NCBI RefSeq assembly: GCF_018614875.1
Contig: NZ_JAGGNW010000014.1
Coordinates: 248,001 to 312,000 of the forward strand
Source of the DNA: Variovorax paradoxus
Lineage (GTDB): Bacteria; Pseudomonadota; Gammaproteobacteria; Burkholderiales; Burkholderiaceae_C
Length of the DNA stretch: 64,000 nucleotides
Direction: 5' to 3'
Shown: positions 36,930-39,210 of the stretch, one piece after another
Layout of the letters: each line of letters begins with the position of its first letter
Numbering within the stretch: the stretch's first letter is position 1
The notes under the pieces: model-generated
What the model saw: only the letters and a program-made list of their open reading frames with translations
What the model was told of the DNA's origin: nothing
Database searches by the model: none
Translations under genes and position numbers: made by a program

Positions 36930-38201
36930 ATGGCCAAGCTCGTGCTCGGCTGCATCGCCGACGATTTCACCGGTGCCACCGACCTGGCCAACAACCTCGT
37001 GCGTGCGGGCATGCGCGTGGTGCAGACCATCGGCGTGCCCGAAGGCGCCCTCGATGCCGACGTGGATGCCGTCGTCGTCGCGCTCAAGTCGCGCACCATC
37101 GCGCCGGCCGACGCCATCGCGCAGTCGCTCGATGCGCTGCGCTGGCTGCAGGCGCAGGGCGCGCGGCAGATCTACTTCAAGTACTGCTCCACCTTCGACA
37201 GCACGCCGCAAGGCAACATCGGGCCGGTAACCGAGGCGCTGATGGACGCGCTGAACTGCGACTTCACCATCGCCACGCCCGCCTTCCCCGACAACAAGCG
37301 CACCGTGTTCAAGGGCTACCTGTTCGCGGGCGACGTGCTGCTCAACGAGAGCGGCATGCAGAACCATCCGCTCACGCCGATGACCGACCCGAACCTCGTG
37401 CGCGTGCTGCAGGCGCAGTGCAAGCGCAAGGTGGGGCTGATCGACTACGCGGTGGTGGCGCGCGGCCCGGCGGCCATCGATGAACGCATCGCGCAGCTGA
37501 AGGCCGAGGGCGTGTCGATCGCCGTCGTCGATGCGGTGTCGAACGACGACCTGCTGCGCATGGGCCCGGCGCTCGCGAAGATGCCGCTGCTCACCGCGGG
37601 CTCGGGCGTGGCCATCGGCCTGCCGGCCAACTTCGGGCTCGCGCCGTCGTCGCAGGCCAGCGCGTTGCCGAAGGCCGGCGGCAGGACGGCCGTGGTCTCG
37701 GGCAGCTGCTCGCTCGCCACGAACCGCCAGGTGCTCGACTTCATCCAGCGCGGCGGCCAGGCAATGGCTGTCGACCCGCTGCGCATTGCGGCGGGCGTGG
37801 ACGTCGCGGCCGAGGCGCTGGCCTGGGCCGCGCCGCTGATCGACAAGGGTCCGGTGCTGGTCTATTCCACTGCCGAGGCCGGCGCCGTGAAATCGGTGCA
37901 GGGCCGCCTTGGCGTGGAAGAAGCAGGCGCGATGGTCGAGCGGACCATCGCCGCCATCGCACGCGGCCTCGTGGAGCGGGGCGTGCACCAGCTGGTGGTG
38001 GCCGGCGGCGAGACCTCGGGTGCCTGCGTGCAGGCGCTCGGCATCGCGCAGATGCAGATCGGCCCGCAGATCGACCCCGGCGTGCCGTGGTGTCATGCGC
38101 GGTCGGAGGCGGCGCCTGAATCGGGGGTGCATATCGCGCTGAAGTCCGGAAACTTCGGCAGCGATGATTTCTTCACCAAGGCATTTACAGTGCTCGGATG
38201 A
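36930..38201 (+). CDS. otnK: 3-oxo-tetronate kinase
   Basis: 423 residues, DUF1537-type four-carbon acid sugar kinase. The N-terminal domain begins CIADDFTGATDLANNLVRAG, with FKYCSTFDSTPQGNIGPV and PAFPDNKRTVFKGYLF. The C-terminal nucleotide-binding domain has VVAGGETSGAC near residue 355. It phosphorylates 3-oxo-tetronate at C4, between OtnI and OtnC. Its ribosome binding site lies in a hairpin stem (see the repeat at 36841-36929). It is followed by a 340-bp non-coding insert carrying two hairpin elements. Confidence 0.94.
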   Translation: MAKLVLGCIADDFTGATDLANNLVRAGMRVVQTIGVPEGALDADVDAVVVALKSRTIAPADAIAQSLDALRWLQAQGARQIYFKYCSTFDSTPQGNIGPVTEALMDALNCDFTIATPAFPDNKRTVFKGYLFAGDVLLNESGMQNHPLTPMTDPNLVRVLQAQCKRKVGLIDYAVVARGPAAIDERIAQLKAEGVSIAVVDAVSNDDLLRMGPALAKMPLLTAGSGVAIGLPANFGLAPSSQASALPKAGGRTAVVSGSCSLATNRQVLDFIQRGGQAMAVDPLRIAAGVDVAAEALAWAAPLIDKGPVLVYSTAEAGAVKSVQGRLGVEEAGAMVERTIAAIARGLVERGVHQLVVAGGETSGACVQALGIAQMQIGPQIDPGVPWCHARSEAAPESGVHIALKSGNFGSDDFFTKAFTVLG

Positions 38202-38244
38202 CATCCGCTTTCAGGGTTTGTGCACGCCGCTGCTTTTCGGGGCG

Positions 38245-38340
38245 CGCTCACGCCGACGGGGTACCTTGCTCCGCGAATGTCCCCCGGCCTTCGGCCTCCT
38301 CCTTGATTTCGCTGCGCAAGGCACCCCATCGGCGTGAGCG
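38245..38340 (+). repeat. Hairpin repeat element, copy 1
   Basis: Terminal arms CGCTCACGCCGACGGGGT and ACCCCATCGGCGTGAGCG pair with one mismatch. Inner arms CCTTG and CAAGG continue the stem. The apical part contains CTCCGCGAATGTCCCCCG, GGCCTTCGGCC and ATTTCGCTGCG, where GCGAA and TTCGC can also pair. The whole element is one long imperfect palindrome. Confidence 0.75.
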
Positions 38341-38387
38341 TTGTTCAGAGCAGTCGTTGATCAGCGGTACACCCGGAGCGCGCCCTC

Positions 38388-38481
38388 GTGCACAGGGCAT
38401 CGGGTGCTCCCCGCAGCGAAATAAAGGAGGAGCCGAAGGCGGGGGACATTCGCGGAGGGGAGTACCCGGTGGCCTGTGCAC
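38388..38481 (-). repeat. Hairpin repeat element, copy 2 (inverted)
   Basis: On the minus strand this has the same apical core as copy 1 (CTCCGCGAATGTCCCCCG, GCCTTCGGC, ATTTCGCTGCG). Its stem arms differ: GTGCACAGGCCACCGGGT pairs with ACCCGATGCCCTGTGCAC, and inner CTCCCC with GGGGAG. Stems differ from copy 1 yet pairing is kept. Confidence 0.75.
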
Positions 38482-38541
38482 GCACCCTGAACAAGAGCAC
38501 CCTGAACACCAGCGCCAAGAACACACACAATAAAAACCGAC

Positions 38542-39210
38542 ATGAAAGAAACCCAAGCCCGAGAAGAAATCTGCCGCGTCGGCCGCAGCCTGTTCGAGCG
38601 CGGCTACGTGCATGCCACGGCCGGCAACATCAGCGTGCGGCTGGACGACGATGGCTTTCTCATCACGCCGACCGACGCCTGCCTCGGCTTTCTCGACCCG
38701 GCGCGGCTCGCAAGGCTCGATGCGCACGGCCAGCAGACCGGCGGCGACCGCGCCAGCAAGACCATCGCGCTGCACATGCGCATCTACGCCGCCGCCCGCA
38801 AGTTCGATGCGGACACGGCCTGCGTGATCCACACGCACAGCACGCACTGCGTCGCGCTCACGCTGAACCAGCCGACCGACGAACTGCTGCCCGCCCTCAC
38901 GCCCTACTTCGTGATGAAAGTCGGCCACGTGCCGGTCATCCCCTACCACCGGCCCGGCGCGCCCGAGGCGGCCGAACAGGTGGCGCAGGCCATCGAGCGC
39001 TTCGGCGCTGCCGGCACGCCCGTCCGCGCCGCGATGCTCACGCGCCTCGGCCCCAACGTCTGGCACGACACGCCCGCCGCCGCCATGGCCGTGCTCGAGG
39101 AACTCGAGGAAACCGCCCGGCTTCAAATGCTCGCGGGCGATGCAAAGCCCGCACCCTTGAATGCCGACCAGATCGATGAACTGCGCACCACCTTCGGTGC
39201 GCGCTGGTAG
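38542..39210 (+). CDS. otnC: 3-oxo-tetronate 4-phosphate decarboxylase
   Basis: 222 residues, class II aldolase/adducin family. The zinc-binding HTH block (VIHTHSTHCVAL, near residue 97) and the N-terminal TAGNISVR motif are present. It decarboxylates 3-oxo-tetronate 4-phosphate to dihydroxyacetone phosphate. The third zinc-ligand region, usually N-H-G, reads TRLGPNVWHD here, so the usual His is missing or replaced by the nearby His. It follows the 340-bp repeat insert and precedes otnI by 12 bp. Confidence 0.9.
   Translation: MKETQAREEICRVGRSLFERGYVHATAGNISVRLDDDGFLITPTDACLGFLDPARLARLDAHGQQTGGDRASKTIALHMRIYAAARKFDADTACVIHTHSTHCVALTLNQPTDELLPALTPYFVMKVGHVPVIPYHRPGAPEAAEQVAQAIERFGAAGTPVRAAMLTRLGPNVWHDTPAAAMAVLEELEETARLQMLAGDAKPAPLNADQIDELRTTFGARW

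Follow-up and report, generated by a model that had tools for sequence, protein, structure and literature searches.

The two opposed hairpins between otnK and otnC of Variovorax paradoxus together make up one composite element, with halves A and B, and are not independent copies. We take the element, with a probability of about 0.7, to be palindromic and composite, probably mobile, without a transposase of its own, and often forming a putative extra cistron at operon junctions. In the mechanism we propose, A and B face each other, each with a conserved core on a variable paired stem, and one single strand, the G-rich one, would probably be recognised by shape, as it is the strand that folds best. 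At a junction of co-directional genes there is in most cases a stop-start on both sides of the element, and the insert is a putative extra cistron, with a start codon on or next to the stop of the gene before it, a frame open across the two hairpins and a stop codon on or next to the start of the gene behind it. Ribosomes could thereby reach the downstream gene with no long untranslated stretch exposed, and since the frame joins the end of the upstream gene to the next start, the element probably does little harm where it lands.

The window is the whole 64,000-nucleotide stretch that was analysed, and the element occupies about 340 bp of it. The first-pass annotation had placed the hairpins inside the otn operon and the flanking genes bear this out. 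Upstream is otnK, for 3-oxo-tetronate kinase (36930..38201, + strand), which matches NF043035 with 636 bits against a cut-off of 350, and downstream is an otnC-like class II aldolase gene (38542..39210, + strand), which has NF043034 as its best match, at 228.8 bits slightly below the cut-off of 250. Hairpin unit A lies at 38240..38345 (+ strand, core 38275-38316) and unit B, inverted with respect to A, at 38384..38486 (- strand, core 38412-38451), both being recognised by inverted repeats, by folding and by our covariance model R1. Three parts have no strand assigned: the spacer between the outer stems of A and B (38346..38383), a fast evolving left tail (38202..38239) and an A/C-rich right tail (38487..38541). 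The right tail has 15-bp near-repeats at 38482-38496 and 38497-38511; many copies have GCGCCCTGAACAACA-like near-repeats of this kind, each of five codons, after unit B, as at 38482-38511 here.

Both hairpins are real. Their arms were found as inverted repeats, 33 nt and 88% complementary in A (38245-38277/38308-38340) and 34 nt and 85% complementary in B (38387-38420/38449-38482), and the same search found the cores of A and B to be mutually complementary. The apex is GGCCTTCGGCC in one unit and GCCTTCGGC in the other, as had been described. Folded as RNA, unit A gives -61.7 kcal/mol on the + strand and -68.9 on the - strand (z -6.45 and -7.59), and unit B -64.5 and -52.8 (z -6.79 and -5.96); in each of these four folds none of 200 shuffles was as stable as the real unit. 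The internal loop of A is C-rich on the + strand, with the better-folding G-rich strand being the - strand, and that of B is G-rich on the + strand, so that in both units it is the G-rich strand that folds better. Model R1, which has 76 positions and covers the inner unit alone, matches A at 38255-38330 (E 7.3e-24) and B at 38398-38471 (E 1.1e-20), both being among the units from which it was built. In a search of the window with Rfam 15 no match was above the gathering score, and two microRNA models that appeared with scores far below threshold were dismissed as noise.

With regard to the composite nature of the element, a loose core pattern finds both units, A followed by reversed B, in 21 of 25 regions of the genome to which the window belongs, with only B in two of the remaining regions and only A in two; L013 lacks the B core and L021 the whole of B. 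The spacing is nearly constant, as the distance from A core to B core (cores delimited by script) is 95-99 nt in all 63 copies that could be classified by gene context and exactly 99 in 44 of them. In a survey of clusters in other genera all 27 opposed two-hairpin clusters (23 distinct, one of them from Variovorax itself) have the units facing each other, one further cluster has both pointing the same way ('< <') and the rest are single hairpins. Each hairpin is about 100 nt long and has the core TGTCCNCCG - variable apical hairpin - CTCCNCCTT, set on a variable but paired stem. The internal-loop sequences TGTCCNCCG and CTCCNCCTT are also constant in 55 units of other genera, in part because the patterns used to find Variovorax units required them, and these units in turn went into the model. 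The lowest-energy fold of the whole element is a long A:B duplex; it was rejected in favour of two separate hairpins because none of its pairs shows a double change.

The first-pass annotation had read the two stems, different in sequence yet each paired, as covariation between two copies. The difference and the pairing are as it stated, but they are not the drift of two copies: the alignment of units from the window's own genome has A stems alike among copies and B stems alike among copies, and the contrast arises because the units belong to two fixed types. Among 53 distinct Variovorax units, in an alignment where the L134 + unit is a B unit counted among the A rows (as it is in the model), the double changes seen in 10 of 23 pairs are mostly this same A/B contrast. 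Within type A the outer stem has the forms GCTCAC/GTGAGC, GATCAC/GTGATC, GCTCCC/GGGAGC and GATCCC/GGGATC, and some copies have mismatched combinations.

The stronger case comes from the 55 units of other genera, in which 21 of 23 pairs have changed on both sides and, in an alignment fitted to the model and to that extent biased toward the structure, 94.3% of cells are paired, against 67.9% after shuffling (none of 500 shuffles reached 94.3%) and 38-48% in slid-alignment controls. The apical hairpins give a check that is mostly outside the model: there are 51 distinct sequences among 66 units of other genera, at least 44 of them having three or more nested pairs. Judged by these alignments the covariation of the stem is real and supports selection on structure, as had been proposed. 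The paired changes might instead come from mutation, by template switching in which one arm of a quasi-palindrome is copied onto the other. The apical stems do vary fastest, and orthologous copies often differ in the apex and are no closer than paralogues, much as template switching would have it. However we regard it as decidedly improbable, as conserved T.C and C.T mismatches beside the inner stem persist in 53 of the 55 units where mending would be expected, and as it does not predict an excess of wobble pairs on one strand. That excess is seen in the cells of the same 55 units that are not Watson-Crick pairs, which on the C-rich strand comprise 38 A.C, 6 G.T and 33 others; the A.C excess there means that wobble pairs are mostly on the G-rich strand. 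Together with the fold energies in the window, this points to folding as a single strand, which could be RNA or single-stranded DNA.

Two variable bases of the internal loop change together, as C/T or T/C, in 45 of 46, 85 of 89 and 61 of 66 units, and could form a non-canonical pair or be part of a two-layer quadruplex. In unit A these bases are 38283 and 38300, and the G-rich strand reads GGAGG..GGGGG or GGGGG..GGAGG. The B loop at 38419-38432 (+ strand) reads AAATAAAGGAGGAG, which is strongly Shine-Dalgarno-like, and the A loop is almost its complement; inspection by eye found no start codon at a suitable distance.

The hairpin is widely dispersed. In the window's own genome there are 37 exact core matches and 48 strong R1 units. 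The covariance model search of Variovorax that the first-pass annotation had suggested was positive for 20 of the 24 other genomes of the genus (R1, E<=1e-8), the number of units per genome ranging from 0 to 129. G004, G011 and G019 are hairpin-rich species, and G002, G008 and G023 hairpin-poor ones. The outcomes that the annotation had named as telling against it, a lack of further copies or copies with identical stems, did not occur. The exact core occurs in 18 of 25 genomes of the genus, including the window's own, and in none of 16 others, and would suggest restriction to the genus, but this was discarded as the model finds the hairpin across the family, in 91 of 200 genomes and 70 of 141 genera sampled (R1, with at most 24 candidates scored per genome). 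In the order 13 of 300 genomes score with R1, eight of them outside the family. The hairpin core is thus a structural family with strong covariation, and our searches of open-licence papers found no published description of it and no name for it. A common ancestral locus was sought in 26 low-copy genomes with 30 loci, and there was no shared neighbourhood except for the pairs L203-L204 and L208-L224.

Empty sites were found at three stop-start junctions that also occur with the element inserted, otnK-otnC, sucC-sucD and ureE-ureF. The allele analysis of the sucC-sucD and ureE-ureF junctions covered 50 of 60 loci. In the case of otnK-otnC the insert is present in the window and in genome G019, and the core is in none of 80 otnK loci of relatives retrieved by name. 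The two genes overlap or almost touch in most of the 20 junctions listed, often as ATGA; in L041, L056 and L095 a longer spacer with a different sequence separates them. In the case of sucC-sucD the genomes G245, G243, G241 and G002 have the empty junction TGAGATG and G000, G019 and G011 the filled one, with A only in G004 and a hairpin-less remnant in G244; four sucD loci are without the motif, and many of the sucD loci in the set are a second, more distant copy of the gene (77-79% identical). In the case of ureE-ureF the typical empty junction is CACTGATG, and there are filled, A-less and hairpin-less alleles as well. Alleles without hairpins can be losses. With regard to the terminal inverted repeats and target-site duplication that mark a MITE, terminal sequences TTCAGGGCGCG...CGCGCCCTGAA are present in many copies, and the doubled stop-start junction suggests a duplication, the length of which is not fixed because the tails have diverged. 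Mobility is probable given the dispersal, the differences in copy number and the empty sites, and the earlier suggestion of a dispersed, probably mobile hairpin gains support from all three.

At two further sucC-sucD loci, L241 and L247 (G016 and G010), there are no hairpins but a 17-codon frame, which has ATGA at the sucC stop and overlaps the sucD start; its sequence is like the tails of the element and it is possibly a remnant or a precursor.

The reading frame that runs through both hairpins was absent from the first-pass annotation. In the window it has 111 codons (38198..38533, + strand): its ATG overlaps the otnK stop as ATGA, it crosses both hairpins and it ends in TAA 8 nt before the ATG of otnC. 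We call such a frame a bridge if its ATG or GTG start lies between -4 and +8 nt relative to the upstream stop and it is open past B; for the downstream start we took, leniently, whichever in-frame start codon is closest to where the bridge stops, and gene directions are from a codon-usage caller that we wrote. G000 and G019 together have 67 A units, of which 65 have a B partner and 63 could be classified, two being dropped for a short flank or unclear direction. The copies sit close behind stop codons: 45 are between co-directional genes running from A to B, 13 between convergent genes and 5 between co-directional genes in reverse, with none of the 63 in a divergent context. Bridges are found in 30 of the 45, in 1 of the 13 and in none of the 5, the last having none on the reverse strand either. 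Counted by distinct sites the figures are 23/35, 1/11 and 0/3 (Fisher p 0.0014 for the first two), with many sites in G000, G019 and G011 being related by descent.

All 30 bridges use one frame relative to the A core, although the left tails give varying distances from start to core. The first ATG or GTG beside the upstream stop, with or without a bridge, belongs to this frame in 31 of 33 co-directional copies and in all three convergent copies that have one. The bridge stop is -13 to +8 nt from the downstream start in 24 of the 30, with a spacing of +1 (TGANATG) in 10 and -4 (ATGA) in 8, and the other six are at +18 to +61. However one frame is open through the element in most copies anyway (37/45 co-directional, 10/13 convergent and 3/5 reverse), so the case rests on the placement of starts and stops at the junctions. 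A closed reverse strand was considered as the cause of the orientation bias and ruled out, as 37 of 45 copies have one or more open frames on the reverse strand.

G011 gave a similar result, and is not fully independent, as it may have inherited sites in common with G019 and its sucCD and ureEF alleles had been seen before. Its 40 regions yield 36 complete elements (24 co-directional, 6 convergent, 5 reverse and 1 unclear), with bridges in 13 of 24 co-directional and none of 6 convergent elements (Fisher p 0.024), the first start codon in the predicted frame in 14 of 16 and the stop -7 to +10 from the next start in 11 of 13. There is no bridge in 15 of the 45 co-directional copies of G000 and G019, nor in 11 of the 24 in G011. 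Among the 32 distinct co-directional clusters of other genera, nine (L153, L156, L165, L200, L209, L215, L216, L221 and L225) carry a bridge that ends between -11 and +10 of the following start and 23 are without a bridge having a nearby stop, in a table where L226-L229 repeat L200, L213, L216 and L207, L169 and L201 are from Variovorax itself, and rows L208, L218 and L224 have the upstream stop misplaced.

That the bridge encodes a small functional protein is, in our view, very improbable. The frames are mostly 97-127 codons long (86-127 over the 30 bridges), in one constant frame and with conserved positions of start and stop, as a protein would have, but the window frame matches no Pfam or NCBIfam family at E<=0.01, stem variants alter the peptide (A/D and P/H at nearby codons) while pairing is kept, and where the apex changes in length the frame behind it is shifted but stays open.

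Comparison of orthologous copies bears on the history of the element. G000 and G019 have 14 of 49 sites in common, and at these the tails are about 51% identical and the hairpin parts 87-94%, with 85% and 77% for flanking coding DNA. Of ten co-directional orthologous pairs eight have the bridge in both genomes and one has it in neither. At otnK-otnC in G019 the copy has a broken frame, which ends in the A-B spacer. In alleles without A the frame has 79 and 76 aa, and where both hairpins are absent 34 aa; in each case it still ends at +1 from the next start. The G004 sucCD allele has no bridge (L233 is among the bridgeless alleles), nor have ureEF alleles L267 and L272, and in L264 and L269 the bridge stop is off the junction, +24 and +13 from the start. 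The hairpins of orthologous sites resemble each other no more closely than paralogues taken at random do, and this suggests that copies have undergone conversion or replacement by one another.

The shared sites could also be taken to indicate a host RNA element, at a 3' end or between cistrons, that acts on mRNA stability or differential expression and is inherited mainly by descent, any mobility being old or over. Such an element would be expected always beside a gene end and never between divergent genes, as found here, and would have strong strand-specific structure. We think it unlikely, however, given a copy number of 0 to 129 within one genus, presence that is polymorphic at sucCD, ureEF and otnKC, and the same hairpins in convergent and operonic copies.

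As to what might move the element, the first-pass annotation had pointed to REP or IS200/IS605-type elements and to a linked REP-associated tyrosine transposase (RAYT); our search for a parental transposase covered the Y1 family and does not favour that link. Y1_Tnp was not found in the window's own genome, which is 89.6% complete, a difference from IS200/IS605. In the 50 genomes tested most have a Y1_Tnp gene (including L174-L193 and L199), mostly single-copy and RAYT-like. It is about equally common in hairpin-rich (21/24) and hairpin-poor (23/26) genomes, and no hairpin was seen within about 1.5 kb of any of the 27 Y1_Tnp loci examined. With feet defined by a loose rule, neither the GTAG nor the CGTC tag was present, on either side, in more than 2 of 45 units of one set and 3 of 70 of another.

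REPIN and BIME elements are described (PMC3116915, PMC2817692 and PMC3733652) as inverted pairs of imperfect palindromes, extragenic and high in copy, and are thought to be recognised as single-strand hairpins. The Variovorax element is likewise an inverted doublet, extragenic, high in copy and with strand-specific folding, and it could be an ordinary REP/REPIN-type element moved by a RAYT, perhaps the single gene of RAYT-like length in 21 of 24 hairpin-rich genomes, its reading frame being incidental. We hold this to be distinctly unlikely given the distribution of Y1_Tnp, and three defining REP/REPIN features fail in this element. The palindromic unit of REP is 20-40 nt, in contrast to about 100 nt per hairpin here; here it is the core near the apex that is conserved and the stem that is free, with no consistent GTAG/CGTC tag; and no linked RAYT was found at the 27 Y1_Tnp loci. 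The CGTC-tagged REPs (PMC3733652) are also dimers, often of two types, and have no dedicated transposase found, but the tag is absent from the Variovorax element. The main text of that paper does not contain the names Burkholderia, Comamonad-, Variovorax or Acidovorax. ERIC and other enterobacterial repeats (PMC2759123) are small mobile palindromes with an open frame from which translation can occur; in those repeats the frames form fusions with other reading frames, whereas here we have a separate putative cistron between a stop and a start.

A closer parallel to a mobile element that carries such a cistron is in the mycobacteria. The MIRUs are mycobacterial repeats, shorter and direct-oriented. 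As described in a 2025 review (PMC12548453), they appear to be mobile, insert at start codons and bring an ORF that is coupled to the gene. On that description the likeness is in an ORF that lies within the repeat and ends where the following gene starts, seen here, as judged by position, in roughly one half to two thirds of the genus's co-directional copies, and in insertion at a stop-start junction, shown here by empty sites. The Variovorax element differs in being from Burkholderiales, in its length of about 340 bp and its two inverted covarying hairpins, and in being found also between convergent genes, there mostly without the frame. By analogy we see MIRUs as the nearest precedent in working and REP/REPIN as the nearest in architecture.

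If our reading is right, the element would be a second, structurally different solution to the problem that MIRUs face, of having a repeat inside operons without silencing the genes behind it. Operon junctions with and without the insert in related species would then form a natural experiment, with convergent insertions as built-in controls. More tentatively, there may be a family of Burkholderiales elements that target the stop-start junctions of coupled genes, bring their own coupling cistron, are recognised through a purine-rich loop on one strand and are moved by an undescribed enzyme or RNA process; we consider this version possible but doubtful.

There is also an arrangement that departs from the usual order of units. 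At L155 (G060:C14) two opposed hairpins are about 670 bp apart with the unit types in B-A order, and they enclose a gene that by eye resembles a membrane-protein gene.
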